Below are positions 4,723 to 46,102 of a DNA stretch of 46,682 nt, one piece after another. A program made the translations under genes and the position numbers. Location: the NCBI GenBank assembly GCA_002731275.1, contig PCBK01000198.1, forward strand, positions 1 to 46,682, in the 5' to 3' direction. Source of the stretch: Deltaproteobacteria bacterium. GTDB taxonomy: Bacteria > Myxococcota_C > UBA6777. Numbering within the stretch: the first letter of the stretch is position 1; every line of letters begins with the position of its first letter. The notes below the pieces were generated by a model, which saw only the letters and a list, made by a program, of their open reading frames with translations, had not been told where the DNA came from and did no database searches.

Positions 4723-7371
4723 ATGCTCACACAGACACGATGGCTCCCCAAATTGGTCACAGGATTGTGTATCACCCTTCTTGCGATAGGCTGCAGCGCC
4801 CAACCAGACAGACAAGAAAACCAAATCATCTTCCCACTTCAAGAAGACGCGACTTCTTCAGCCGCCCAAAACTGGACTGATTTGGGCCCCAACGTTAGTC
4901 ACTTAGGCGCTACAAATATCGTGATACAAGACGGCCAGACCGTCGTGTTTGATGCTGCACACACAAAAATCAACAAGCTGATCATCACCGATGGTACGTT
5001 CAAATGCAAAGATGATGGTGTACACCGTGTTCTTGAGACCAAAGGAATCATGCTCAATGGTTCGAATGCCCGTTTCGAGTGTGACCTCTCTGGAAACTCA
5101 GAATCGACTCTTGAGATCAAGTTTTACGGCAATATCGAGTTCCCCGGTTCGGAGCTCCACTGTTCGGACAACCATATGCACAATCACGACAACACAGGTC
5201 AGCAATCCTTTTTGGTGTTGTGCGGAGCGACCCTCGATTTGAAAGGCTATGATCGCGGACCTTCGTGGGTGTTGACAGGTGATGGTGTGGATGTCAACCA
5301 AGACAGCAAAGGGCCCATCCAAATCGCTCCATCCAGATCCATCCAAAACTGGAAGGCCGGCGACGAGATCGTCATCGCCCCCAGCTCTCCCAACCCCATG
5401 CACACCAAAAAATATACAATCAGCAATATCACAGGAAACGAACTCAATATCACGACCAGGCTCAAAAAAGAGATTCGCAGCAAAACAATGAGCTACAGAT
5501 ACAACCAAACCCTCGATCAGCGCGTAGAGGTCGCGAACCTCACACGCAACATCAAGATCCGCGGAGAAAAGCTCAACGACAAGAGTTACCACATGATGTT
5601 CATGCAACCAGGGAGAATTAAGATCGAGAGCGTGGAATTTATCGGTGGCGGCCACATGGGCGACCTCGCGCGCTACCCTATCCACTGGCACATCGCAGGA
5701 AATCGCCAGGGTGATTACATCAAAAAATCATCCATCCACGACACAGAGCAACGGTGCATCACCATCCACGGAACCCATAGAGTCCGTCTTGAGGACAATG
5801 TTTGTTACAACCACGTAGGACATGGCTTCTTCCTGGAAGATGGAGATGAACAACACAACATCTTGAAAAACAATCTCGCGATCAACGGTATCAAACCCAA
5901 AGCAGGAAAAGTCCTCTTACACTCGGATCTTCAGACCTCCTCCAAGCGATACAAACCAGTCGCAGGGTTTTGGATCTCCAACCCCAACAATCTACTCGAA
6001 GGAAATGCAGCCGTAGGAGAAGGTACAGGTTTTTGGTATGCCCTTAAAAGCGCAGATAGTTTACAAGGACGCATCGCCTCACTCACACCCGCTCCCATCA
6101 ATACACCCATCCGCCTCTTTCGCAACAACCGTGCTCACGCAAATGGCGTCGGTCTCACGATCGACGGAGGTCCTAACAATGACTGCTCTTCTGAAGATTC
6201 CTGCACAAACGCAGAGAGCAACATGTTCCCTACCGGTACCAATTACGAACCGACAGCTTCTTCTGTAATTGAAGGGTTTATCGCTTACAAGAACAAAGAG
6301 TTTGGGCTTTGGGTACGTTCTCCAGGAGGCAACACTGTCGTCAGAAACAGCATCGCAGGAGATAACTACGTCAACTTCGGATTGGTCTTTGACCAGCTGT
6401 TGGAAAACTCGGTTGTCGTTGGAAAGAGCGCAAACATGACCGACGAAGACATGGGCTTCCTCGTCAATAGATCATGCACCGATTGCAGCACACCTCCGAC
6501 AGTCACCGAGCTCGTTCCTGCTTCGGGGTTGGTACTGTACGATGGTCCCATCTCCCTCAAAAATGTCGAATTTGCAGACTACCCTACAAGTTTGCAACTC
6601 AACCTCTCAAAAACAAACCTGACCAACTACGACATCGCGCCGGTCCCGTTTGTCTTGACAGGCGCAGCCGCAATGAGAAGCTCAACACATCGAGTGGAGG
6701 GGGTTACATTCAGTAACGCACCAGGAGCAATAGGAGATTTTGCGCACACCTTCAACCACGCGAGCAAAAAGAACTGGGCCGCAGGACTCTACGATGTCGA
6801 CGGGACCTACTCCGGCCATGCAAATCACACCGTCAAATCCGATATGCCCATGAATGTGTATCCTGACTGTAAGAGAGATACCAAACTGCGTAACGCAGTG
6901 ATCTGTCCGGGTGTATTTGGGCTGTTTGGCATTGTCAAAGAAACATTCCAGGCCAATATCACACGTGTCGATCGACTGCTCAACAAACGAGTCCTGTTTG
7001 ATATCGACAACCAACCGTACAGCCAACCAGACAACAACAACATCAATCAGTTCTCTTTCTCACATGTTGTGGGAGGACGCTTTAAATACGTGATTGAACC
7101 ATCTAGCAGCGATGCCTTCGAAAACGATGGCTTTGTAACTTACGGAAAACTTGGAGAGTGGAGTCCTTGGTTTGACTTCCGCCATAAGGCACACCGTTGT
7201 GAGTTGCTAAACAGCGCCTCCACAAACCACAGAATTCAAAAACATACGGACACACAACTCATTTTTAGGGTCAAATACACAACGCTGGATCGACGCACGA
7301 GCTACAACGGAGACTACCGATACAAAGCAACCTTCCGTATCAAATGTGCCCCCCCAACGAATAGCCCCTAA
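4723..7371 (+). CDS. G8-domain / parallel beta-helix surface lipoprotein
   Basis: An 882-residue lipoprotein (Cys24 after AIG). Residues ~50-180 match the G8 domain pattern: a WTDLGPN start, INKLIITDGTF, and a GATLDLKG region. After that comes KAGDEIVIAPSSPNP, and residues ~285-560 are right-handed beta-helix (PbH1-like) turns. The segment RYPIHWH (317-323) followed by GN is the signature I associate with animal CEMIP, CEMIP2 (TMEM2) and PKHD1L1. CEMIP and CEMIP2 have been linked to hyaluronan breakdown, so a role in binding or cleaving polysaccharide is plausible but unproven. The protein is predicted to sit on the outer surface. AGAGG lies 5 nt before the ATG. It is transcribed alone, divergent from the cytochrome gene and convergent with the next gene, with hairpin repeats behind it. 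Confidence 0.8.
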   Translation: MLTQTRWLPKLVTGLCITLLAIGCSAQPDRQENQIIFPLQEDATSSAAQNWTDLGPNVSHLGATNIVIQDGQTVVFDAAHTKINKLIITDGTFKCKDDGVHRVLETKGIMLNGSNARFECDLSGNSESTLEIKFYGNIEFPGSELHCSDNHMHNHDNTGQQSFLVLCGATLDLKGYDRGPSWVLTGDGVDVNQDSKGPIQIAPSRSIQNWKAGDEIVIAPSSPNPMHTKKYTISNITGNELNITTRLKKEIRSKTMSYRYNQTLDQRVEVANLTRNIKIRGEKLNDKSYHMMFMQPGRIKIESVEFIGGGHMGDLARYPIHWHIAGNRQGDYIKKSSIHDTEQRCITIHGTHRVRLEDNVCYNHVGHGFFLEDGDEQHNILKNNLAINGIKPKAGKVLLHSDLQTSSKRYKPVAGFWISNPNNLLEGNAAVGEGTGFWYALKSADSLQGRIASLTPAPINTPIRLFRNNRAHANGVGLTIDGGPNNDCSSEDSCTNAESNMFPTGTNYEPTASSVIEGFIAYKNKEFGLWVRSPGGNTVVRNSIAGDNYVNFGLVFDQLLENSVVVGKSANMTDEDMGFLVNRSCTDCSTPPTVTELVPASGLVLYDGPISLKNVEFADYPTSLQLNLSKTNLTNYDIAPVPFVLTGAAAMRSSTHRVEGVTFSNAPGAIGDFAHTFNHASKKNWAAGLYDVDGTYSGHANHTVKSDMPMNVYPDCKRDTKLRNAVICPGVFGLFGIVKETFQANITRVDRLLNKRVLFDIDNQPYSQPDNNNINQFSFSHVVGGRFKYVIEPSSSDAFENDGFVTYGKLGEWSPWFDFRHKAHRCELLNSASTNHRIQKHTDTQLIFRVKYTTLDRRTSYNGDYRYKATFRIKCAPPTNSP

Positions 7372-33518: not shown

Positions 33519-34685
33519 CTACTTGGATTGATTGGTTTCTTTGGGGTTGTCTTGGATGATGGATACGAAGGCTGTGTTTTGTTGTGGTTGTAGAGTGGGT
33601 GTACCAAGTGTGTGTTCACCGAACATCCCCCACATGTGACAGCCTACATAGAGACTCCACATCCCAATATTTGGGTAGCCACCAATATAGACAGGTTCCC
33701 ATTGTGGGCGGAACTTGTTCTTGAAGTAAACGAGGCTGCGAAAGCGGAAGAGTTGGTTGCCAAGTGTGGAGTGGTAGAGGGTGTGGAAGATCCAGCGGAG
33801 GTGGAGTGGTAGAGGGTGTGTGGCTTCTGGGATGAATGCCATTGGACATGCTCCAAGAGAGAATCGTGTGACACCCTCTTCGGCGAGCTGCCGGATACAT
33901 GAGACAAACAAGAACTCCATTGTCCCTGCTGGAGCGTGTGGACAACGAGCCATGACATCTACACCCCACCCTTCTTGGGACCAGCCTGGTGTGATGGAGA
34001 CGACCGCGACAGGCGTAGGACTCTCCGGGCAAAATGCGCCGAGGTATCTTCTGTGTCCAGGCATCTGAAGATTGGGGGTGCCGATCAATAGACTCATCTT
34101 GTGGCCTTCTGGTCGATGGCTGAGCCATTCTTGATAGGTGTGTTCTATCAGGTGACGATCTTGCACAGGGTCGAGCCATCGTGAAGTCAGTTGATATCGT
34201 TTGGTGGCGCGGTTGAACATTTGTCTGAGGTCGGCCATCTTCTTTCCCTTCATGGTGAATTGAGTGGGATCGAGGAAGGCCTCTGAGCCAACTTGCAAGC
34301 AACGAATACCTGCTTGTTCGACGGCTTGTTTTTCTTGTTTCGTGATGGGAAAGAGCAGGACGCGTTTGTGGGATTGTGCTTTGGCTTGTGTGATGAAGTC
34401 CTGGAGACTTTGTGTCAGGTGTTCTTGTGGGCCGTGGTAGCCACCGACGATGAATGCACTTTGTCCTTGTGATTGGACACTGAGCAGCCCTTGTTTACAT
34501 TGGATGAGTTGGAGATCGGGTTCGAGTGAGAGGTAGCCATTTGCGCGGGGGGAAGCGTCGATAGTGTCGATGATGGTTTCTTTAGGAGGGGCGGGGAGCT
34601 GGAGGGGCTTGGTGCCCCAGAGTCGGTCGGCCCATCGTCCAGGTAGTGAAAGCAATGTGCGCCATGATAGGCGTGGTGTTCTCAT
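33519..34685 (-). CDS. stand-alone MprF-type aminoacyl-phospholipid synthase domain (DUF2156)
   Basis: A 388-residue protein corresponding to the soluble catalytic half of MprF/LPG synthase, without the multi-span flippase half. It has tandem GNAT-like folds and the late signatures FSLGACPM and LVYFKNKFRPQWEPVYI, a pattern typical of DUF2156. MprF-type enzymes transfer Lys or Ala from aminoacyl-tRNA to phosphatidylglycerol, but free domains can have other acceptors, such as peptide or lipid amines. The hydrophobic stretch at ~270-290 is weak. It is leftward and 175 bp after the kinase gene, so probably its own unit. Confidence 0.75.
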   Translation of the reverse strand: MRTPRLSWRTLLSLPGRWADRLWGTKPLQLPAPPKETIIDTIDASPRANGYLSLEPDLQLIQCKQGLLSVQSQGQSAFIVGGYHGPQEHLTQSLQDFITQAKAQSHKRVLLFPITKQEKQAVEQAGIRCLQVGSEAFLDPTQFTMKGKKMADLRQMFNRATKRYQLTSRWLDPVQDRHLIEHTYQEWLSHRPEGHKMSLLIGTPNLQMPGHRRYLGAFCPESPTPVAVVSITPGWSQEGWGVDVMARCPHAPAGTMEFLFVSCIRQLAEEGVTRFSLGACPMAFIPEATHPLPLHLRWIFHTLYHSTLGNQLFRFRSLVYFKNKFRPQWEPVYIGGYPNIGMWSLYVGCHMWGMFGEHTLGTPTLQPQQNTAFVSIIQDNPKETNQSK

Positions 34686-34860: not shown

Positions 34861-36423
34861 TCAGGGGACTTGGGAGAGGATCTCGTTGAGATATTTGGCG
34901 CGGATAGAGAGGGAGAAGACCTGCTTGGAGCTGTATTTTTTGAGTAGCTTGCTAAAGACCGCTTTGCTTTTTTTGATGTTTCCTTTTTTGTACAGTTTCT
35001 CAGCGAGCTCAACTTGTAGGCCGATGGACGCGCGAAGTCGTATCTTCCGTAGCCAGACTTTCTCTGTTGGTGAGGCCTTTGGTGCGAAGATATGTGTTTG
35101 TTCAATAGCTTGGAGCCATTGCTTCTTTTGGATTTGTTGGAGGATGATTTGTTTATGGGAGGGGGTGTTGTTCTTGTACAGAAAGAATCCGGCAAGGCCA
35201 AGGACAAGTATACCAACAGCTGCGAGGGCGAGCCAGAGTCCTTTTTTGGAGGAGGATTGTTGGTAGAGGCCTGTTTGATGTTGTGGGTAGAGACCTGTTT
35301 GTCGTTGTTGGTAGAGGCCTGTTTGGAATGAGGGCGTTTTTGGATGAGGATCGTTATACGAGGAGTGGGTGGGGGCTGGTTTGAGTCTATGTGTATCTGT
35401 ATTCTGGAGGAAGATGGAGAGGTCACTGAGCTCGACAGCGCCAGAGGTTTGCTCGGGACGTTGTCGTTGCTCACTGGGAAAGAGCGTGCTCATGAGTTTG
35501 GGTAAGTCGATCCGTTGGGGATTGGGTTGTGAGGCGGCGAAATCGAGGAGCGCTTTTCGTATCTCTTTGGCGGATTGGTAGCGCACCTCAGGTTCGCGTT
35601 CGAGGGCCTTCATGACAATTTGTTCGAGTCTTGGTGGGTAGTTTGGGATGATCTGTGAGGGCGGTGTGATAGGTTCGGAGACGAGCGCGGTGATGATCTC
35701 GCCTTCTGTTGCGCGTTGAAAGAGTCCACGGTTTGTGGTGATCTCGTAGAGGACGATACCGAGGGAGAATAGATCGGAGCGTTGATCGACTTTTTGTCCG
35801 ATGAGATGCTCTGGAGCCATGTGACTGAGGCGTCCCTTGAGGACACCTACACGTGTTTTGTGGACTTGTGTGTTGGCCTTGGCGACACCAAAGTCGATGA
35901 GTTTGATTTCCCCTTTGTACGAGATGAGGAGGTTACTTGGGCTTGTATCTCGGTGGATGATGCCGAGGTGTTGCCCTTCTTCGTCCGTGACATGGTGTGC
36001 ATAGTCGAGGGCTTTGGCCGCCTCAGCGCCGATCAAGGCGAGAAGGTCGTATGGTACATTGTTGTTGTAGCTGGGGTGGGTGTGAAGACGTGTGCTGAAC
36101 GAACGCAAATTTTGGCCATGGATGTAGTCCATAATGATGAAGTAGATGCCATTTGCGTAATCGATGCCATGCACTTTTACGATGTTGGGGTGGTGTAGTT
36201 GTGTGGTGAGTTGCGCTTCATCCAAAAACATCGTGATGAATTCTTCCTCTTTGGAGAGGTGAGGAAGAATGCATTTCAACACAAAGATATTGTTGGGGCC
36301 TTCTGGGAGATCTGAGCGACTGGCGAGAAAAAGCTCGGCCATACCACCTTTCGCCAGGCGTGTACGAATCCTGTACTTTCCAAGTTGCAGCTGTTGTTGG
36401 TTTGCAAGTGTCGAGTGATTCAT
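34861..36423 (-). CDS. transmembrane Ser/Thr protein kinase
   Basis: About 520 residues. ATG 36423 is chosen (AAAGG ~11 nt upstream); an ATG eight codons earlier lacks a site. Kinase lobe at ~15-285: the Gly loop is LAKGGMAE, the catalytic Lys is in FVLKCI, the loop HRDTSPSN carries Thr-Ser in place of the usual Leu-Lys, and DFGVAK and MAPEHL follow. All catalytic residues are present. A juxtamembrane stretch carries three copies of an eight-residue TGLY-centred repeat (24-bp DNA repeats, 35257-35328). One membrane helix (~400-420) and a small periplasmic helical/TPR-like domain complete it. It is the last gene of a five-gene leftward signalling operon and only 51 bp after the BMP lipoprotein gene, which could present its ligand. 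Confidence 0.9.
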   Translation of the reverse strand: MNHSTLANQQQLQLGKYRIRTRLAKGGMAELFLASRSDLPEGPNNIFVLKCILPHLSKEEEFITMFLDEAQLTTQLHHPNIVKVHGIDYANGIYFIIMDYIHGQNLRSFSTRLHTHPSYNNNVPYDLLALIGAEAAKALDYAHHVTDEEGQHLGIIHRDTSPSNLLISYKGEIKLIDFGVAKANTQVHKTRVGVLKGRLSHMAPEHLIGQKVDQRSDLFSLGIVLYEITTNRGLFQRATEGEIITALVSEPITPPSQIIPNYPPRLEQIVMKALEREPEVRYQSAKEIRKALLDFAASQPNPQRIDLPKLMSTLFPSEQRQRPEQTSGAVELSDLSIFLQNTDTHRLKPAPTHSSYNDPHPKTPSFQTGLYQQRQTGLYPQHQTGLYQQSSSKKGLWLALAAVGILVLGLAGFFLYKNNTPSHKQIILQQIQKKQWLQAIEQTHIFAPKASPTEKVWLRKIRLRASIGLQVELAEKLYKKGNIKKSKAVFSKLLKKYSSKQVFSLSIRAKYLNEILSQVP

Positions 36424-36474
36424 CAGATTGGTTGCCTTTCTACTCATGTATATGTGGCGGTGAGGTGAGGATGG

Positions 36475-37803
36475 CTAGCGATCTCCCCTACAGCTTTCAG
36501 GGACGGTGGCTGGTGTTGTTGCGTCATCACCGACAATACCTTCAACATACCAACACATGTTGAGGAGTTGTTTGTCAGTTGTGTACGAGCCTGCAGGGAT
36601 CCTGACGGTGCCTTGGTTGTCTTTGATGGGTCCCTTAAAGGGGAGATGTTGTCCTTCTTGCCCTTCTGTCGCAAGTTTGGGAATATAGTTGCTGACTTCA
36701 AGCCGAACCGTTCCTGGGATGGCAGAGCTAAAGTCTGTGAGCGCAAAGGTACTTTCTTGCTTGTCTTTTTTGACTTGTTCCCAGATGATTTTGGAGGGGT
36801 CCCACTTTCCTTGTTCGAGTTGTTTGACAAGTCGTTCGAGGATCGCGCCCCAGTTCCAGTAGGGGGTGAGTATACATGTGCGGGGACCAAAACTACAAGC
36901 GTTGATGGAGTTGAGGCCGATAGTATAGACTTTCTCTCCACTTTTGGTTTTGAGGGGTTCACCGCTAGCGTTCTCAATTTTCTCGATAGGGATGGAGGTG
37001 TCCGTGTGGGAGTGGATGATATCGGTATCGAGATCCAGGAGTTCTTGTGTGACGATGGGTTCTTTTACCGGGTCAAACCAGTTGTAGATCCACTTGACGA
37101 CGACGACCGCTTTTTTGAGTTTGTCTTTGTTTGGGTTCTTTTGGAAGCCAACTTGGACACCTGCCGCGAAGGCGTTGAGGTGTCTGACAACTTCGGGGAT
37201 GGGTTGGGTTGCGATGAAGCCAACGCGTCCCGTCTTGGTCATGGAGCCTGCAATCATTCCAGCCAACCATTCGATCTGGTAGAGGCGACCAAAGTATGAA
37301 CCGAGGTTTTTGCCCGATTCAAATCCAGAGCATTCAAAGAAGTTGAGATCGGGATATTTGGACGCTTTGCTGAGCATCGGGACGAGGAAGTCGTAGCTTG
37401 TTCCGACGATGACGTTGAAGCCTTGTTTCACAAAGTCTTCGATCTGGTTGGGGGCATCTTTGGTGCTGACTGGACCTGCGAAGGTCGTTTCGTAGCCGAG
37501 TTTTTTGAGGTGTAGTCGTCCTTGTTCGTGGGACCATGTCCACCCAAAGTCTCCTACAGGACCGGAGTAAAGGAATGCAATTTTGGGTTTTCTTACAGCT
37601 GGACGGTAGGGGCCGTTTGGGATACCACCGTCTTGTGTATCAGAGACACAATATCCACCACTACAAGTAAACCCCTCCGCACATGGTTTGGCATTACTAC
37701 ACGGGTATTTGACGTCTTTCCAGTCGAGCTCGCCAGTGCAAGAAACGAAGACGATAAGGGCAAGCGCGAGAAAAAACATGGGGAGTTGTTTGGTGATGTT
37801 CAT
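36475..37803 (-). CDS. BMP/PnrA-family nucleoside-binding lipoprotein with Cys-rich insert
   Basis: A 442-residue lipoprotein (VSC lipobox, Cys22). Residues 35-52 form a four-Cys module (C35, C41, C47, C52; pattern C-x5-C-x5-C-x4-C) like the modules of the giant surface protein at 9831. Residues ~70-400 are a BMP/Med family periplasmic-binding fold: KIAFLYSGPVGDFGWTWSHEQG, GFNVIVGTSYDF, GRVGFIA, DIIHSHTD. Family members bind purine nucleosides for ABC uptake or sensing. No permease or ATPase gene is nearby; the neighbours are kinases and PEGA proteins, so a receptor role is inferred. AAGG overlaps the previous gene's stop codon 12 bp upstream, showing tight operon packing. Confidence 0.88.
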   Translation of the reverse strand: MNITKQLPMFFLALALIVFVSCTGELDWKDVKYPCSNAKPCAEGFTCSGGYCVSDTQDGGIPNGPYRPAVRKPKIAFLYSGPVGDFGWTWSHEQGRLHLKKLGYETTFAGPVSTKDAPNQIEDFVKQGFNVIVGTSYDFLVPMLSKASKYPDLNFFECSGFESGKNLGSYFGRLYQIEWLAGMIAGSMTKTGRVGFIATQPIPEVVRHLNAFAAGVQVGFQKNPNKDKLKKAVVVVKWIYNWFDPVKEPIVTQELLDLDTDIIHSHTDTSIPIEKIENASGEPLKTKSGEKVYTIGLNSINACSFGPRTCILTPYWNWGAILERLVKQLEQGKWDPSKIIWEQVKKDKQESTFALTDFSSAIPGTVRLEVSNYIPKLATEGQEGQHLPFKGPIKDNQGTVRIPAGSYTTDKQLLNMCWYVEGIVGDDATTPATVPESCRGDR

Positions 37804-37815
37804 CTTCTTGTTGCC

Positions 37816-38970
37816 TTAGTATGTTGAGAGGATGTGGAGGGGTTGGCTTGTGATGCTTGGCTGAGTGGACGTCTTGGTTTTCGCCTTCGAAGCACCTGCA
37901 CCTGTAGCGAAGAGCACTGCTGACAGGACGACAAGACCTCCAGCGGAACCCGCCAGAACCAATCCGAGTCTTTCATTGTCGTTGGCCGTTTGCCATTGTT
38001 TGCTCAGAGCGAGTTGGCTTGCTGTTTGTGTCTCTGGCGATTGCAATGCTGCGCGCACTGATTGGTGTGCTTGGTTGGATTGGAGCAGAAAGTACGTGCC
38101 TGCTCCGCCAGCCGCAAGGCCTGCGGCAAGGACAATCCAACCTGGCCAGCTCGTGTACCACAACGTCTTGTCTTCTGCCGGAGGAGGTGTTGGGCGACTT
38201 TGTTGTGTGCTCAATACAAATGAGAGATTCTCTTTCTTCTCCGCTGAAATATCCACAGTTTTTCGGTTACTTTTGTACCCTTTGGTTTTCACCAGTACAG
38301 TATGCGTACCTACAGGAAGTTTGATGTCCTTAAGTGGAGTCTTTCCCCAGTTTTTTCCATCGATTTCAACCATCGCGCCCTCTGGTTGGCTCGTGATGGA
38401 GAGTGTCCCTGTTTGGGCTTGGAGCTTCAAACGCAAGTTGAGTGATTTTCCTCCAATGATCGTCACCTCTTGCTCAATCGTTGCGTGGTTGGGGTGCGTG
38501 ATCTTGAGCTTGTGTGTTCCTGTTGAGAGCGCAAGTGGCTTGATGGGAGCCGTTCCTGTCGCCTTGCCATCAATGTGAATGCTGGCACCTGAGGGGGTGA
38601 CAAACAGAACCAATCGTCCCTGCATCATTTTTTTCTTGAGGTGAGCCAGTTTGCTCATGAGACGAGATTGCGTCATCTTGTTTGGGTTCTCTTTGAGGCC
38701 TCGTTGTACTGTTGCGAGCGCGTCTCGATAATTTCCCAACGCTTCCTGACATTTCGCGACCGCAAAGGAGAGCCGTGGGTTTGCCCACAAAGAGTGTGCT
38801 TTTTGATAAAGTGTAAGGGCCTTGGAGAACTCACCTTTATCGTAAGAAACTGCAGCTGTCTGGGACAACTTGACGACTTTTGCAGCGACCTCTTCCGAAG
38901 GTGCTGTTGCGTGGGCTTGTGGGATCACAAAAACAAATAAGACAAGGGCTAAAAAAAATAAACGTTTCAA
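37816..38970 (-). CDS. TPR-PEGA membrane protein
   Basis: A 384-residue exported protein starting at TTG 38970, with GGAGGA 7 nt upstream. A signal peptide (~1-22) leads to TPR-like helices (~30-110). Two PEGA domains follow: LVLFVTPSGASIHIDGKATG (~119) and LSITSQPEGAMVEIDGKNWG (~195). A Pro-rich bit and one or two membrane helices (~275-300 and ~330-355) complete it. PEGA domains are surface or periplasmic beta modules often fused to kinases; here it may bridge envelope and kinase partners. It lies 23 bp after the pseudokinase gene and 12 bp before the BMP gene. Confidence 0.85.
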   Translation of the reverse strand: MKRLFFLALVLFVFVIPQAHATAPSEEVAAKVVKLSQTAAVSYDKGEFSKALTLYQKAHSLWANPRLSFAVAKCQEALGNYRDALATVQRGLKENPNKMTQSRLMSKLAHLKKKMMQGRLVLFVTPSGASIHIDGKATGTAPIKPLALSTGTHKLKITHPNHATIEQEVTIIGGKSLNLRLKLQAQTGTLSITSQPEGAMVEIDGKNWGKTPLKDIKLPVGTHTVLVKTKGYKSNRKTVDISAEKKENLSFVLSTQQSRPTPPPAEDKTLWYTSWPGWIVLAAGLAAGGAGTYFLLQSNQAHQSVRAALQSPETQTASQLALSKQWQTANDNERLGLVLAGSAGGLVVLSAVLFATGAGASKAKTKTSTQPSITSQPLHILSTY

Positions 38971-38993
38971 GAATCATTCCTCCATCAAGAGCT

Positions 38994-40442
38994 TCAAGGA
39001 AGCTCGATTTGAATAGGTTTCAATCTTACAAAGTAGGAGCTTTTCTTGTTTGTAGGAGATATCCTGATGGTCTTTGAAAAATGATCTTTTCTTTTGATAA
39101 TAAAGACTTTGGTACTATCTCTTGCGATTCGAATTCGAATGGGCGTGACACCCAAACGTTTGCTTTGTCCTTTTATATAAACAGCCGCCCCTGTGGGAGA
39201 GCTGCTGAGACGAATTCTTCGTCTACGTAAGCGTCTCGAGCGTCTACGGACCACACGCTTGGGTTTTTTTCTCACCTTCAGAGGACGTCTTCTGTTCTTT
39301 TTGACAGGCTTTTTGGTTGGTTGTGCTGCTGACACTCTCTCTGTTGGCTCTGGTGGTATCGCTCTCTCTGGCGGCGAAGAGACAGCGTCTTTTGTACTTG
39401 TGTCTGGTATGGTGTTGGTGTTTGGTGACGAACCCCTTGTGTTGGTCTCTGGAGTCTTTGTTTTTTCTGGAAGAGCTGCTGCCACAGATGCATCACTTTG
39501 TTGTGTCGTGTTGGTTGTTGGCTGTGTTGGTTGTGGCCAGAAAAACCATGACAGTCCAATGACAATGACAAAGAGTAAGCCCACTCCCATGAGAGGTTGT
39601 GTGAGGAAGGACAGCCCCGGACGTTGTTTTTTCTCTTCTATGGCTAGCTTTTTGGCGACCTTTTGCATCGTCGGTCTGTTGGCTGCCACATTCTCCACCA
39701 TCGTGTGAAAGAGAGTGTGAAGTGAGTTTGGTATATCGACGTAAGCAGGGAGTGATGGGAGCTCGTTTGGCGGGAGTGGTTGCGTCAGCAGTTGACCTGT
39801 AAGCATGGACAACAACAACAGCCCGAGCTGGTACACATCTGTGTGTGGGTGTTCAACGCCCTCGTCTTCCATCTGTTCGGGAGCTAAGTATGGGTATGTA
39901 GGGGCGATTTTATACGAGTTTTGTTGAGGGAAGGGGACACCGAGACCGTGGAGTTTCACAAAGTCCCCACCGCTACCATCTGGAACAAGCGTGATATGCT
40001 TTGGATGGAGCGCGTGGTGGTACAGCTCTGCTTTGTATGTCACGGCCAACGCGTTTGCGATTTGGCTCGTGATAGAGAGTGCACGAGCGAGATGGAGTGG
40101 GCCTTGTGTCGTGATTAACTCTTCTAGTGTCTGTCCTGGAACAAACTCAGTGACGTAGTAAAGCTCTCCGTAAGGGGTTTCGTTGTGTTCGATGATTTGC
40201 AGGATATGTGGAGTTTGCAGCTGCGCGCGTTTGATGACCTCTTGCTCAAATTGAAAAAAGCCCCCCCCTTCTTCTTGTGCTGTAAGCAGCTCGATCAACA
40301 CCTTCTCGCCTGCTAACGTATGTGCCGCAACATAACTCTCGTATACACCATGTAATGGCCTTTTTTGGATGATACGATATCTGTTCTCCAGTGTGGAACC
40401 TATACCCGTTTTGTCTCTTTGTGGGGGGGAAGCCGTTGTCAT
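38994..40442 (-). CDS. Ser/Thr pseudokinase with PEGA tail
   Basis: A 482-residue protein; AGAGG 5 nt before ATG. Residues ~20-270 keep the kinase fold (FVPGQTLEELI, YLAPEQ, TDVYQLGLLLL). The catalytic Lys is replaced by Glu51 (VLIELL), HRDLKPxN by HHALHPKH (142-149, no catalytic Asp), and DFG is lost (KLHGLG, ~163-168). The Gly loop is also degenerate (RPLHGVYES). One membrane helix lies at ~280-298, then a Thr/Pro linker, a very basic stretch (about ten Arg/Lys-rich repeats, ~385-415) and a PEGA domain (~416-470). It likely acts as an allosteric or scaffolding partner of the active kinase encoded downstream. An eight-G run in its coding strand (40261-40268) could slip. Confidence 0.88.
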   Translation of the reverse strand: MTTASPPQRDKTGIGSTLENRYRIIQKRPLHGVYESYVAAHTLAGEKVLIELLTAQEEGGGFFQFEQEVIKRAQLQTPHILQIIEHNETPYGELYYVTEFVPGQTLEELITTQGPLHLARALSITSQIANALAVTYKAELYHHALHPKHITLVPDGSGGDFVKLHGLGVPFPQQNSYKIAPTYPYLAPEQMEDEGVEHPHTDVYQLGLLLLSMLTGQLLTQPLPPNELPSLPAYVDIPNSLHTLFHTMVENVAANRPTMQKVAKKLAIEEKKQRPGLSFLTQPLMGVGLLFVIVIGLSWFFWPQPTQPTTNTTQQSDASVAAALPEKTKTPETNTRGSSPNTNTIPDTSTKDAVSSPPERAIPPEPTERVSAAQPTKKPVKKNRRRPLKVRKKPKRVVRRRSRRLRRRRIRLSSSPTGAAVYIKGQSKRLGVTPIRIRIARDSTKVFIIKRKDHFSKTIRISPTNKKSSYFVRLKPIQIELP

Positions 40443-40535
40443 GAGAGCCTCTCTTGTTCGTGAGGAACAAAGTCTCGGTTTTGGGGGTAAACATGCCTGA
40501 CTCGTTCGTGTGTTGCCGTGTTGATGGAGGGGGGA

Positions 40536-42299
40536 TTATGAAAGGCGCAATCTGCTGATGACGTGTTGGAGCAGATTGCTCTCGTGTATATCCTTGTCCA
40601 AAAGTAAATCTACGCCAGCTTTTGTTGCTGACATAGTAAGCGATTCAATGGGTTGTTTTGTCAATAAAAAGAAAGGTATATCTCGCCACTCTGGCATCGA
40701 GCGCAGGAGGCGACAGAGGTCGATACCGTTGAGCGTGGGGATCTCGAAGTCGATGAGCAAAAGATCTGGACGGATATTGGACATCTCATGCATGAGGTGC
40801 ATGGGAGACATCGCGGTCATCGCCTCCATGTTTTGCTCTGTAAAGTAGGTTTGAAGTTTTCTCGCAAACTCCGTGTCCTTTGACATCAAAAAGAGCTTTG
40901 GTTGCTCTTTGTAAAACCCTTTCACCTTTCTCAACAACGCTCCAAATGAATCCTTCATCTCGTTCTCTTCGATGTAATAAGAGCGAGCCACGTGCGCTGC
41001 AAGGACGCGTTTTGACAGCTCAACACTCTCTCCGAAAAACAGGATAGGGATGGATTTGTTGCCCTTTCGTATTCTTTGAGCGGCTTGCACAGTTGCAGGC
41101 ATGATGTAGAGCGGCAGAGACGAAGTTCCTGGTTGTTGGTTGTAGTTTTGTGCGGTGCTTTTTGGAAAGGGGATGAGCAAGACATCACACGACGTGAGCT
41201 TGGGATGTGTCAGGATTTCGTCAGAGGAACCAAACTGACATAACTCTATAGTATCCCTCACCGCGAGAGGTTGGAGAGTTTCGTAGAGCGCACTTTCCTC
41301 ACTCAGCAAGAAGGCATTGAGGAGCTCTGTAGGTGGAGTTTGTGAACTCTCATCTCCTTCGATTTCTTCGATGATATCGAGGCTGGGAGATGATTCTATT
41401 GGGAGCTCCATGGATGAGTAGCTGGTGTTGTTTTCTTGCCTGAGCTGTAAGACACACTCTTCCAGTTTCTTTTGGATCGTCTGAAAGTTGAACTGCAGGT
41501 TTTCCGTTTGACCTTGTGAGTGACTTTCTAGTATTTTTTCAATGACCCCGCACTGTTCGCTTATTTCGGAGAAGCCAAAGGAGCCTGCACTACCATGAAG
41601 CTGGTGTGTTTGCTGTAGAGCCTCATCCAGGGACTCTCTATCTCTTTTTTTGTAAAAGGAAGAGAGCGAACCTAGCAAATGAAAGAGCTTTTTTTCGAGC
41701 CGTTGTGCATGATCTTGCCGCATCTCTTCGAAGAGTTTGGAGGCTTGGACTGCTGTTGAGTGTCTGGACAATGCTGGATTTGTCATGATGGACGTTGCCT
41801 CATGCAAAAGGGGCATTTTGGTTTGGCCTGTCTCCTGAAATGCGTACAACAACCCCTCTTGTGGGAGTGGTATAGAACTTGTTGTGGTGGTGATGTTGTG
41901 GGAAAAGGTGTCCTCTGGAGGGGGGATGTATGCAGAAAGAGCGCGACTTAAGCCTTCATCATCAATCGGTTTTTTGATGAGTGTGTCAACGCTTAGTGTG
42001 TGGGTGAGATGTTCCCGAAGAGGATACTCAAAGTACTTTTGGCTCGCTGAGATGAAGATGATCTTTGGTTGTTGAGCAAGCCTACGAATCTCCTCAATAA
42101 AGCTCACACCGTCACCATCTGGTAGCACTCCATCCACAAACATCAAGTCGAACCTCATTTGCCGTGCAAGTGTGAGCGCTTGTTTGTATTTTGTGACGGA
42201 GAGGACCTCATGGTTGTGCTTCATGAGAAGAGACGAGAGTCTATCCCGAAAAAGCATTTCGTCTTCCAGTACGAGGATTCGGTATTTGGGATTCGACAT
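40536..42299 (-). CDS. receiver-HPt-receiver response regulator
   Basis: A 587-residue cytoplasmic phosphorelay protein. Receiver 1 (~7-122) has the acid pocket E12/D13, phospho-acceptor Asp56 (FVDGVLPDGDG) and Lys110. An HPt domain (~190-290) has the motif THQLHGSAGSFG with phospho-His232. A divergent middle region (~335-455) resembles a degenerate receiver. A C-terminal receiver (~470-587) has LLIDFEIPTLNG and DKD, but its N-terminal acid pair is replaced by MSKD, so it may not be phosphorylated normally. No DNA-binding domain and no histidine kinase are present nearby. It is the first gene of the signalling operon, 93 bp before the pseudokinase. Confidence 0.9.
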   Translation of the reverse strand: MSNPKYRILVLEDEMLFRDRLSSLLMKHNHEVLSVTKYKQALTLARQMRFDLMFVDGVLPDGDGVSFIEEIRRLAQQPKIIFISASQKYFEYPLREHLTHTLSVDTLIKKPIDDEGLSRALSAYIPPPEDTFSHNITTTTSSIPLPQEGLLYAFQETGQTKMPLLHEATSIMTNPALSRHSTAVQASKLFEEMRQDHAQRLEKKLFHLLGSLSSFYKKRDRESLDEALQQTHQLHGSAGSFGFSEISEQCGVIEKILESHSQGQTENLQFNFQTIQKKLEECVLQLRQENNTSYSSMELPIESSPSLDIIEEIEGDESSQTPPTELLNAFLLSEESALYETLQPLAVRDTIELCQFGSSDEILTHPKLTSCDVLLIPFPKSTAQNYNQQPGTSSLPLYIMPATVQAAQRIRKGNKSIPILFFGESVELSKRVLAAHVARSYYIEENEMKDSFGALLRKVKGFYKEQPKLFLMSKDTEFARKLQTYFTEQNMEAMTAMSPMHLMHEMSNIRPDLLLIDFEIPTLNGIDLCRLLRSMPEWRDIPFFLLTKQPIESLTMSATKAGVDLLLDKDIHESNLLQHVISRLRLS

Positions 42300-42630
42300 T
42301 GTACTTCTGTTCCCTTTAGCGTGTCATGCTGTGGACTTTTGGTCTTTTATCACATCAGTCCATCTTTTTGCACCGAAAAGCATGACGTGTTTCTGTTGCG
42401 CTAAACATCATGCAAATGAAGGGCAAAAGATTCAAGGATTTTGATGTGGTATGAGAGGAAATGATTCATTGGACCAAAAAGCTCGACTGCCCCAAGGCAT
42501 CTTTGGTTGGTGATTCTTCTTTCTGTATCCTTACTGTAGCCAATGAAATAAGGCTTTCATCCTGGTGTGTTTCTGCTATACTCTCCATCACATAGACCCA
42601 AAAATTGAATCACCTGAGGAGGCGTTTGCT
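42300..42630. other. divergent promoter region, no gene seen
   Basis: It lies between the leftward signalling operon (start 42299) and the rightward small gene (start 42631). It must hold the operon's promoter. No clear -35/-10 pair or operator repeat could be fixed by eye. Confidence 0.4.
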
Positions 42631-43054: not shown

Positions 43055-43705
43055 CTATGCAACGTTGAAGGTGTAAAGACAAAACGACTCGCCTTGGCTC
43101 AAGGTGTAGCTCGTCGTATCTGTGAGGGTGAGTGTTTCTGGACAAGACGGAGGGGTGTGCTCCGTACCCCAGTAGAGGACCTGGCCTTCTGGTGAGAGGT
43201 AGTGGTGGATGATGGGGAGAACCTGTTCGGGGTTGACCGCGCGAAAGGTTACACATGCACAATCAGTGGGGAGTTTTTCTTTTTCTGGTTCACCATCAAA
43301 GCGGACTGGTCGAATCTTCATGTTTGGGAGCTTGAGATCACGTCTCGCCTGTTGAAGGAAAGCCGCGCGTTTATGATGTGATTCGACAAGGAGCCAGTGG
43401 AGATCTGGTCGCAAGATGGCGAGCGGGATCGCTGGAAAACCTGCACCTGAACCGACATCAAGGACGGTGCTTCCTTCTGGGAGTTTCGCGATGGTTGAGA
43501 GCGCGATGAGGGAGTCGACAAAGTGCCGATCCGAAAGATCATGAAGTGACGCAGCACCTGTCAGACGGATCTTTTTGTTCCACCGCAAGAGGGACTTTCC
43601 AAAAGAGATAAATGCTTTGGTGATATCATCACGCCAGCTGAGGTCGGTATTTGATGACTCGATGAGCTCGCGAAGTTGCAAGCCAATTTGTTTTTCAGGG
43701 TTCAT
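43055..43705 (-). CDS. rsmG: 16S rRNA (guanine-N7) methyltransferase RsmG
   Basis: A 216-residue SAM-dependent enzyme that methylates G527 of 16S rRNA (GidB). It has the SAM loop VLDVGSGAGFPAIPLA (~81-96), the conserved RWNKKIRLTGA start, HFVDSL, and SHHKRAAFLQQ. Its length is normal for the family. In many bacteria rsmG lies close to oriC beside parAB, but here it is 18 kb away with no par genes in view. It is 24 bp downstream of the zinc-ribbon kinase gene, so probably co-transcribed. Confidence 0.95.
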   Translation of the reverse strand: MNPEKQIGLQLRELIESSNTDLSWRDDITKAFISFGKSLLRWNKKIRLTGAASLHDLSDRHFVDSLIALSTIAKLPEGSTVLDVGSGAGFPAIPLAILRPDLHWLLVESHHKRAAFLQQARRDLKLPNMKIRPVRFDGEPEKEKLPTDCACVTFRAVNPEQVLPIIHHYLSPEGQVLYWGTEHTPPSCPETLTLTDTTSYTLSQGESFCLYTFNVA

Positions 43706-43729: not shown

Positions 43730-45697
43730 CTACAAAAGGCACCCAGTCTTCCAACAGATGAGCAGGACGTTGCGGCCATTTTTTTTGATGCAAGAGAGCT
43801 TCTTTCGTGTGCTGGATGTTTTTGTCTCATTGCACGTGCGCAAGAGTTTTTCGATATCGAAGGTCTTTTGGAAGACGATCTTCTTCCTCCCCTGTTGTTG
43901 TCTCTTGAGCGTGAGGGTGTTTTGTCCTGACCACAACCTGATGCGACATCCGTGCTGACAATTTGGGAACGCAAATCCATCAATACTCGTATACGCCCAA
44001 GGACGCAGAGATAACTCGATAGGATAGCGCTTCCATCGTTGTTGAATGAGCTGTTTGGCTCTGTGTGGATGGACGCGAAAGCGAAATGAGCGACGTAGCT
44101 TTGCCTCTTTGGAGAGACAATGTGCTGTGTACCGTCCAGGTTTGAGCGTGCGTGAAGATGAAGAATCAAATGTCTCACTCCCCTCTTTGTCGAGAGAGAG
44201 TGTTGGGCAGGGAGGTGTCAACTCAAAGCGCACGGTGATCGCTTTGTAGGTGCGAATGATCGTCCTTTTTGGTGCTCTATTACTATGTTTTTGTTTGCGA
44301 ATTTTATGAAATGATCTTCTGGGGATCGGTTTTGAGGGGAGCACTGTCCGGGGAGATACAGGTTGTGTCGCGGTTTTGACGGGGTGAGGCTTTTTGTGTT
44401 GTGTCGGCGGGATTTTGCGAATGATCTTTTTGATCACACGTCTCGGGAGGGTGATATCGGGCTGTGTGAGATCTGATTCAATGGAATCTTGTGAGCGAAA
44501 GAAGTAAAAGATCGCGATGGCTGAGCTGAAGAGGATCACGAGGAGGAGTGGGTAAAGGAGTGAGTTGGAGAGGTAGACAGGCGGTTGATCTGTGTTGGGA
44601 GATCGATGTTGATCGGTTGGATACCAAGCCAACAGCGGTGTCTCTTGGGGTGCCTCTTCTGGGATCGTGAAGGTCAAAGGATCCAGATCGATGTGGTTGA
44701 GTTGGGTAAGGCACTCACTGAGATCGGAGAACCGATCATCTGGCTGATAAGCCAGGCAACATCGCAATAATGCTCGGAGTGTTGGAGGCAATGGGATGGG
44801 GATCAGTTTGAGCGGTTCTGCATGCAGGCTATAGAGGTGGTAGAGGTTGTCGGCATCGAAAGGAAGCGTATTGGAGAGCATTTGGTAAAGGATGATCCCA
44901 AGGGAGAAGATATCTGAGCGTTGATCAAGGGCTTTTCCCCACGCTTGCTCAGGCGACATGTAACAAAGTGTCCCGAGGATAACGCCAGAGGTGGAGATAT
45001 GTGGTGTAGAGTGTGAGGTATCTTTTGAGAGTCCAAAGTCAAAGAGTTTGGCAAAGGGTTGTCCGTTGTCATCGTAAGTTAACATGACATTGTCTGGTTT
45101 GAGATCGCGGTGGATCACACCGATCTCATGAGCTTCCAAGAGGGCTTGTGTGATCTGTCGAAAGATCGTGAGGGTGTGAGAGAGTGGGAGGGTCTGATCA
45201 TGGAGGATCTCTTGGAGTGTGTTGCCTTTGAGCAACTCCACGATCATGAATTGTGCGATCAGGATGTTGTTTTCTTTGTGCTCGCCGTATCCGTAAACAC
45301 GTACACTGTGTGGGTGGTTGAGTCTACTGAGGATTTGGACTTCTCTGTGGAAACGATCTCGAAGGATCGGATCGGTGATCTCTTTGTTGAGCTTGATCGC
45401 GAGTTCTTGGGGAGGCTGTGTATTGTCTAGTTGGGCAAGTACACGATAGACTTCTCCCATCCCTCCCCCGCCGAGCCATTCTCTCACAAAGTAGATCTGA
45501 TCATCTTGTTTGAGGCACTTTCCGGAGAGTGGTCCTGTGAGGATTTTTTTGCATAATTTACAATGAGAATTAGGGGGTTGGATATGTTGGCAGGTGGGAG
45601 CAGTGCACTGAAAGAGTGCGTCGAGAGGATGTTGGCAGTGGGGGCATTGATCCTCAAGAGAGCTTAGTGGCTGTTTACAATGAAGGCATGTGATCAA
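43730..45697 (-). CDS. zinc-ribbon Ser/Thr protein kinase
   Basis: About 655 residues. The start is chosen at TTG 45697 with AGGA 8 nt upstream; TTG 45721 in frame is the longer option. The N-terminal double zinc ribbon has four Cys pairs (CLHC, CPHC, CTAPTC, CKLC; first ~50 residues). The kinase domain (~75-330) has GGGGMGEVY, AIKLNKE, HRDLKPDN, DFGLSK and MSPEQA, all catalytic residues intact. One membrane helix (~380-400) is followed by a basic linker and a C-terminal outer domain with PEGA-like strands and Cys pairs. The zinc ribbon at the cytoplasmic end resembles DZANK/double-zinc-ribbon kinases. It is upstream of and probably co-transcribed with rsmG. Confidence 0.9.
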   Translation of the reverse strand: MITCLHCKQPLSSLEDQCPHCQHPLDALFQCTAPTCQHIQPPNSHCKLCKKILTGPLSGKCLKQDDQIYFVREWLGGGGMGEVYRVLAQLDNTQPPQELAIKLNKEITDPILRDRFHREVQILSRLNHPHSVRVYGYGEHKENNILIAQFMIVELLKGNTLQEILHDQTLPLSHTLTIFRQITQALLEAHEIGVIHRDLKPDNVMLTYDDNGQPFAKLFDFGLSKDTSHSTPHISTSGVILGTLCYMSPEQAWGKALDQRSDIFSLGIILYQMLSNTLPFDADNLYHLYSLHAEPLKLIPIPLPPTLRALLRCCLAYQPDDRFSDLSECLTQLNHIDLDPLTFTIPEEAPQETPLLAWYPTDQHRSPNTDQPPVYLSNSLLYPLLLVILFSSAIAIFYFFRSQDSIESDLTQPDITLPRRVIKKIIRKIPPTQHKKPHPVKTATQPVSPRTVLPSKPIPRRSFHKIRKQKHSNRAPKRTIIRTYKAITVRFELTPPCPTLSLDKEGSETFDSSSSRTLKPGRYTAHCLSKEAKLRRSFRFRVHPHRAKQLIQQRWKRYPIELSLRPWAYTSIDGFAFPNCQHGCRIRLWSGQNTLTLKRQQQGRKKIVFQKTFDIEKLLRTCNETKTSSTRKKLSCIKKNGRNVLLICWKTGCLL

Positions 45698-46102
45698 GAT
45701 TCTCTTCCTTTGTTTACCCAATGAGCGTGTTGGGTATGATATCGCAAATGCATTGTGATCAGAAGCGGTTTTTCAGGAGAGGATCGCCTCAAGCCTGTCT
45801 GTTTACTCTTGTAACATTTTATGATGTATAGGGTTTTGCCATGTCTTCAGTGTTGGGTATACGATCGCGTAACTGTATCACTGCAGAGGAATCACTTCAT
45901 TATATATAGGCAGTAGAGACATTGTTTCAATGATGTTGTTTTTCTCCTTGTGAGGCTTCTTTGATCTTTTTTGACGAGAAAAAAGGGGAGAATGTGTGAA
46001 ATGTGCCCCAGAATGTCCTCTATGGCTCTTCTGAGAGGTGAAAAAAATGATACGTTAAGGTGATGTTTTCTTTGGTAAAATGAGAAAGGTTAATTTTTAT
46101 TG

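Follow-up and report, generated by a model that had tools for sequence, protein, structure and literature searches.

What most bacterial Ser/Thr kinases respond to is unknown, a gap called an “outstanding question” in a study of the actinobacterial GlnH-GlnX-PknG system, where a lipoprotein solute-binding protein feeds a Ser/Thr kinase (PMC6069109). That system provides a precedent for the locus described here. In both, a lipoprotein solute-binding protein without a transporter role is encoded together with a separate membrane protein and a Ser/Thr kinase, and for both it is proposed that the ligand is sensed in the periplasm and the signal passed on to the kinase. The parts differ, since the binding protein is the amino-acid protein GlnH in Actinobacteria and a putative purine-type Bmp protein here, while GlnX is set against a TPR-PEGA protein and a PEGA kinase. 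Moreover, PknG is soluble, whereas the kinases of the present locus cross the membrane, and one of the present proteins is a pseudokinase. From domain content and general knowledge, we take the two sets not to be homologous as sets; the best reading of the domains is that the locus is analogous to GlnH-GlnX-PknG and not a member of that system.

Several described Bmp-family proteins can be compared with the lipoprotein of this locus. Med (2hqb), an activator of comK, is an example of the Bmp fold outside transport, in regulation, but it is a weak match (52 bits) and its mode of action is different. PnrA/TmpC and BmpA/BmpD share the Pfam family, the fold class and the lipoprotein anchor with the present protein but give far weaker profile scores. 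AtzT and 3s99 resemble it in sequence and in ligand-contact residues. Proteins of this type in other phyla mostly lie with an ATPase and two permeases, whereas the present copy has no such neighbours and carries an extra Cys-rich N-terminal segment. AtzT binds guanine, with a KD of about 0.11 µM, and adenine, at 2.5 µM, and adenine was modelled in 3s99 according to the same paper (PMC6834077).

The locus lies in a window of 46,682 nucleotides, the whole stretch of DNA that was analysed, on contig PCBK01000198.1 of assembly GCA_002731275.1 (Deltaproteobacteria bacterium; GTDB phylum Myxococcota_C). An ORF check of the window recovered all five genes on the minus strand, from 42299 to 34861, where a preliminary description made from the sequence had placed them:

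40536 to 42299, minus strand: receiver-HPt-receiver protein, 587 aa, soluble (Pfam Response_reg twice and Hpt)
38994 to 40442, minus strand: transmembrane pseudokinase with C-terminal PEGA, 482 aa, core gene 1 (Pkinase 5.6e-17, weak PEGA)
37816 to 38970, minus strand: TPR-2xPEGA protein, 384 aa, core gene 2 (PEGA 2.3e-30 in two stretches, TPR)
36475 to 37803, minus strand: Bmp-family lipoprotein of AtzT/3s99 type, 442 aa, core gene 3 (Bmp 1.9e-30)
34861 to 36447, minus strand: transmembrane Ser/Thr kinase with intact catalytic residues, 528 aa (Pkinase 2.9e-33)

The ORFs and Pfam domains agree with the preliminary description of five genes on one strand in this domain order. Its first three gaps (93, 23 and 12 nt) hold to the nucleotide, and the last, given as about 51, is 51 nt when measured from the second ATG of the final gene (36423) and 27 nt when measured from the first (36447). 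It had also described the cluster as having no histidine kinase or ABC permease, and neither was found there. A domain scan detected no histidine kinase among the cluster genes or the scanned neighbouring genes, and no ABC ATPase or permeases are encoded in the cluster. Because the gaps between the five genes hold no terminator-like site, and because a promoter scan found no excess of promoter-like sites over shuffles, transcription of the five genes as one unit is plausible. Predicted RNA structure upstream of the first gene (42295-42420) was no better than that of shuffles (z = −0.28), and an Rfam scan of the window returned only a single tRNA, far from the cluster.

The lipoprotein begins with a hydrophobic segment ending in a lipobox-like FVSC motif, and its Bmp domain (PF02608) scores 106.3 bits against a Pfam cut-off of 24.1. 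Among solved structures, phmmer ranked 3s99 (2.6e-46) and AtzT (4.7e-46) first, at about 160 bits each, followed by Med. A profile search gave 388 and 365 bits for the AtzT/3s99 pair, compared with 76 and below (58-76) for nucleoside-binding types; among the nucleoside lipoproteins, TmpC scored 58 bits, BmpD 54 and BmpA 49. Ligand contacts were mapped via the alignment printed in PMC6834077, with a chain offset of five. The AtzT residues Tyr45, Ser97, Glu165, Trp194, Asn218 and Asn220 correspond to W88, S136, E204, W242, H266 and D268, and the backbone contact Phe98 corresponds to Y137. All six contact side chains are identical to those of 3s99 and three of the six to those of AtzT, the exceptions being Tyr to Trp, Asn to His and Asn to Asp. 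Given the grouping with AtzT and 3s99 and the six side chains identical to those of 3s99, the ligand is probably a purine base rather than a nucleoside. The BMP/PnrA-like lipoprotein of the preliminary description is a Bmp protein with a lipobox-like motif but belongs with AtzT/3s99 and not with the PnrA group, and the nucleoside tentatively proposed as its ligand gives way to a purine base as the likelier candidate. The Cys-rich N-terminal segment before the Bmp domain is common to the phylum's copies and absent from the aligned ABC-linked relatives.

Relatives of the lipoprotein were sought in 386 genomes sampled across the domain. Outside the phylum, 29 Bmp-relative loci were examined, each read up to about 9 kb on either side, with kinases and transporter genes detected by phmmer using a few queries. 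An ATPase and two permeases lie beside the Bmp gene at 23 of the 29, and no Ser/Thr kinase was detected beside any of them. In the tree, the four full-length AtzT-type copies of the phylum, which lie beside kinases, group as a single clade (100/100) on a long stem, in line with a single change of role in these proteins. Among the nearest relatives in the tree are, with weak support, a pair of Bmp genes lying amid hybrid histidine kinases and a fused Bmp protein; neither has a complete transporter set beside it. At the locus of the pair (L140:2429-13556, genome G361), two tandem Bmp genes share their neighbourhood with a receiver protein and three hybrid histidine kinases, and there are no transporter genes. 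It resembles the window cluster in that Bmp genes without transporter genes lie beside signalling kinases, but the kinases are histidine kinases and the phylum is another. A Bmp domain at L079:9403-11322 (genome G054) occupies the C-terminal half of a 639-residue protein whose N-terminal half is unassigned, and no permease genes were detected nearby. Literature searches, mostly of freely accessible journals, for Bmp proteins with histidine kinases and for PEGA proteins as kinase partners yielded nothing usable.

Conservation within the phylum was assessed in the five genomes of the collection, which represent one family and three genera (the window's genome, G000, and four others). A core of three genes, encoding kinase-PEGA, TPR-2xPEGA and Bmp lipoprotein, keeps its order in a second genus, g3. 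In genome G004 all three lie on one contig (C225, 8452-12556), where the Bmp orthologue is 59% identical to the window protein and keeps all six purine-pocket side-chain contacts; in G002 the contig (C106) ends inside the cluster, after the TPR-PEGA gene, and the core is seen up to that end. The TPR-PEGA protein has one strong match in each of these genomes (45-46% identity), adjoining the kinase orthologue, and no match at 1e-15 in G001 or G003. Directly beside these TPR-PEGA orthologues lie the best matches of the pseudokinase (1e-42 and 1e-40, the next kinase being at 1e-21), which are its orthologues on G004:C225 and G002:C106. No counterparts of other window genes were found at the two loci except generic kinase matches. 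Since the order of the core is conserved while the flanking genes are unrelated, the adjacency is more than chance. This core is based on two genera and three genomes, with one complete relative cluster, and fragmentation of the metagenome-assembled genomes hides part of the picture.

The other two genes behave differently. The receiver-HPt-receiver gene and the downstream kinase are in the cluster only in the window's genome; both g3 genomes have another kinase gene upstream of the core, and this gene is not orthologous to the downstream kinase of the window. Ser/Thr kinases are very common in these genomes, and one neighbouring kinase means little alone. PEGA matches (63), kinase-like frames and VWA/MopE-like matches (dozens) are so numerous in the window's genome that any one adjacency of these families weighs little. 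The five-gene set put forward in the preliminary description is therefore reduced to three genes that stay together in the second genus, with the receiver-HPt-receiver and 3' kinase genes outside the conserved set. In the gene-neighbourhood comparison that it had envisaged, a Bmp gene with an ABC transporter was seen only in other phyla.

By hydropathy, the TPR-2xPEGA protein has a signal peptide and two C-terminal hydrophobic segments; its gene has a TTG start with GGAGG upstream. Relatives elsewhere have a kinase directly downstream in three of seven cases and nearby in two more, with no Bmp gene. Because such relatives often adjoin kinases without a Bmp gene, the lipoprotein seems to have been added to a more common pair of kinase and TPR-PEGA protein.

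An alignment of the pseudokinase included both of its orthologues as well as other kinases. In the window protein, the VAIK Lys is replaced by Glu, the HRD Asp by Ala, the catalytic Asn by His and the DFG Asp by Gly, and a Gly of the glycine loop is replaced by His, while the alpha-C Glu, the APE Glu and the alpha-F Asp are kept. Both orthologues, like the other kinases of the window, have intact catalytic residues. The loss of four catalytic residues (Lys, Asp, Asn, Asp) bears out the earlier call of a pseudokinase. Between the window protein and its G004 orthologue, identity is 32% over the kinase domain and 35.5% over the PEGA part; these identity levels, together with the lost residues, indicate that the kinase domain persists although the residues that catalysis requires are gone. 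The PEGA part scores 14.6 bits, below the Pfam cut-off of 20.8 that the orthologue passes with 24.0 bits, and hydropathy predicts one transmembrane segment at about 276-305. Because the second-genus orthologues look catalytically intact, the pseudokinase is, on this comparison, a lineage-specific loss, a kinase that died. The downstream kinase has the VAIK Lys, HRD Asp, Asn and DFG Asp, one transmembrane segment (401-426) and an extracytoplasmic tail. It reaches 223 bits against PknB_PASTA, short of the cut-off of 450, with only the kinase part matching, and its best matches in relatives are on contigs without the Bmp cluster. This kinase may replace the dead pseudokinase. Structure predictions from two-sequence alignments were poor (mean pLDDT 45 for the lipoprotein and 42.5 for the pseudokinase) and were set aside.

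We favour, at roughly even confidence, a model in which a solute-binding lipoprotein cut off from its ABC transporter serves a trans-envelope Ser/Thr kinase system as its ligand-binding input. A fuller version is offered tentatively: a purine base would be the stimulus of the Ser/Thr kinase system, received through the former transport lipoprotein, and in one genus the kinase would have become a receptor pseudokinase backed by a second kinase. In the favoured model, the periplasmic lipoprotein would bind a purine base (adenine or guanine-like), the PEGA/TPR regions of the two membrane proteins would recognise its closed form, and this recognition would change the state of the cytoplasmic kinase complex. 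The PEGA kinase of the second genus itself looks active; in the window genome, the downstream active kinase would catalyse, and the pseudokinase would serve as receptor or scaffold. The gene order and its conservation, the domain make-up, the loss of catalytic residues, the conserved purine pocket and the absence of a matching transporter are observed; from them we infer the identity of the ligand, the protein contacts, the direction of the signal and the division of labour between kinase and pseudokinase. From the trans-envelope set first envisaged, this model retains the binding-protein-type lipoprotein without an ABC partner, the PEGA proteins and the kinases, with the core found in a second genus, and drops the nucleoside and the equal standing of the two genes outside the core. 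The cluster gives a concrete candidate ligand class for a Ser/Thr kinase system, and, with an apparently active kinase and a dead orthologue in the same gene setting, it lends itself to a natural comparison. If the model is true, purine bases would join the short list of nutrients sensed via binding proteins linked to Ser/Thr kinases, and the lipoprotein may tell the cell about purines outside, in a phylum that is barely sampled.

The lipoprotein could instead scavenge purines for a transporter encoded elsewhere, lying beside kinase genes through co-regulation or chance. Most of its relatives are uptake proteins in ABC operons, and the window genome has two Bmp proteins in all, the second of which (C178) has an ATPase beside it, as well as a single PF02653 permease pair in the whole genome, on another contig (C185). 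The second Bmp protein, however, is of another subgroup and separate in the tree, and the matches of the C185 pair to AtzT-type permeases (1e-47 and 1e-37) are weaker than those of every permease beside an AtzT-type Bmp gene (all about 1e-58 or better). The gene order with the PEGA proteins is also conserved across genera, and we consider orphan uptake unlikely. The separation of the Bmp and ATPase genes from the sole permease pair (L142 and L143, on G000:C178 and C185) recurs as the same split in G002. It is also improbable, in our estimate, that the core genes make up a general kinase module for envelope stress or the cell surface, with a Bmp protein that binds a non-purine surface ligand or works structurally. 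Such a module would fit the occurrence of PEGA and TPR-PEGA proteins beside kinases in several phyla without any Bmp gene. It would also fit a second g3 Bmp paralogue, 55% identical to the window lipoprotein, that has Gln for E204 and Asn for D268; these pocket changes hint at another specificity, and specificity may drift. The window protein and its orthologue nevertheless keep the full set of pocket side chains. The paralogue is present in both g3 genomes (L074:1851-12109 and L073:4387-14458, on G002:C79 and G004:C203). Genes for a TPR protein, a Ser/Thr kinase, a VWA/MopE-like protein and a kelch/FGE-sulfatase lipoprotein form a run with it on one strand, and its company of TPR protein and kinase speaks for the favoured model.

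Finally, as the preliminary description proposed, the five genes could all belong to a single system in which the receiver-HPt-receiver protein carries real cross-talk between a His-Asp relay and the Ser/Thr kinases. The first two genes share a strand and are separated by 93 nt with no terminator-like site, and, as read from the sequence, the phospho-acceptor residues are present in both receivers (Asp) and in the HPt (His). The protein has no hydrophobic transmembrane segment by hydropathy, and the stretch between the HPt and the last receiver appears to be a degenerate receiver-like middle. Against such a system, no full-length match to the protein was found in the other four genomes of the phylum, none lies beside their core clusters, and the cluster has no histidine kinase. 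The one paralogue, in the same genome (C4:9009-10706, 35% identity), adjoins an unrelated protein of a large family. We therefore regard this arrangement as a poor prospect, and the relay protein does not stand as a conserved member of the set. Cross-talk is possible in the window genome only, on the strength of one genome's gene order. A link between the receiver-HPt-receiver protein and the Bmp cluster via a shared VWA/MopE-like neighbour was considered and rejected, since the genome has dozens of matches to this family and the neighbour is not the best of them.

Further genes of the window were recorded. A transmembrane Ser/Thr kinase with an N-terminal zinc-ribbon-like segment (43730-45721) lies beside an rsmG-like gene (43055-43705), and a stand-alone C-terminal phosphatidylglycerol lysyltransferase (MprF-like) domain (33519-34685) follows closely after the cluster, encoded on its strand. 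At 4723-7371, a large lipoprotein-like protein combines G8 and CEMIP beta-helix domains, which are most familiar from animal proteins.
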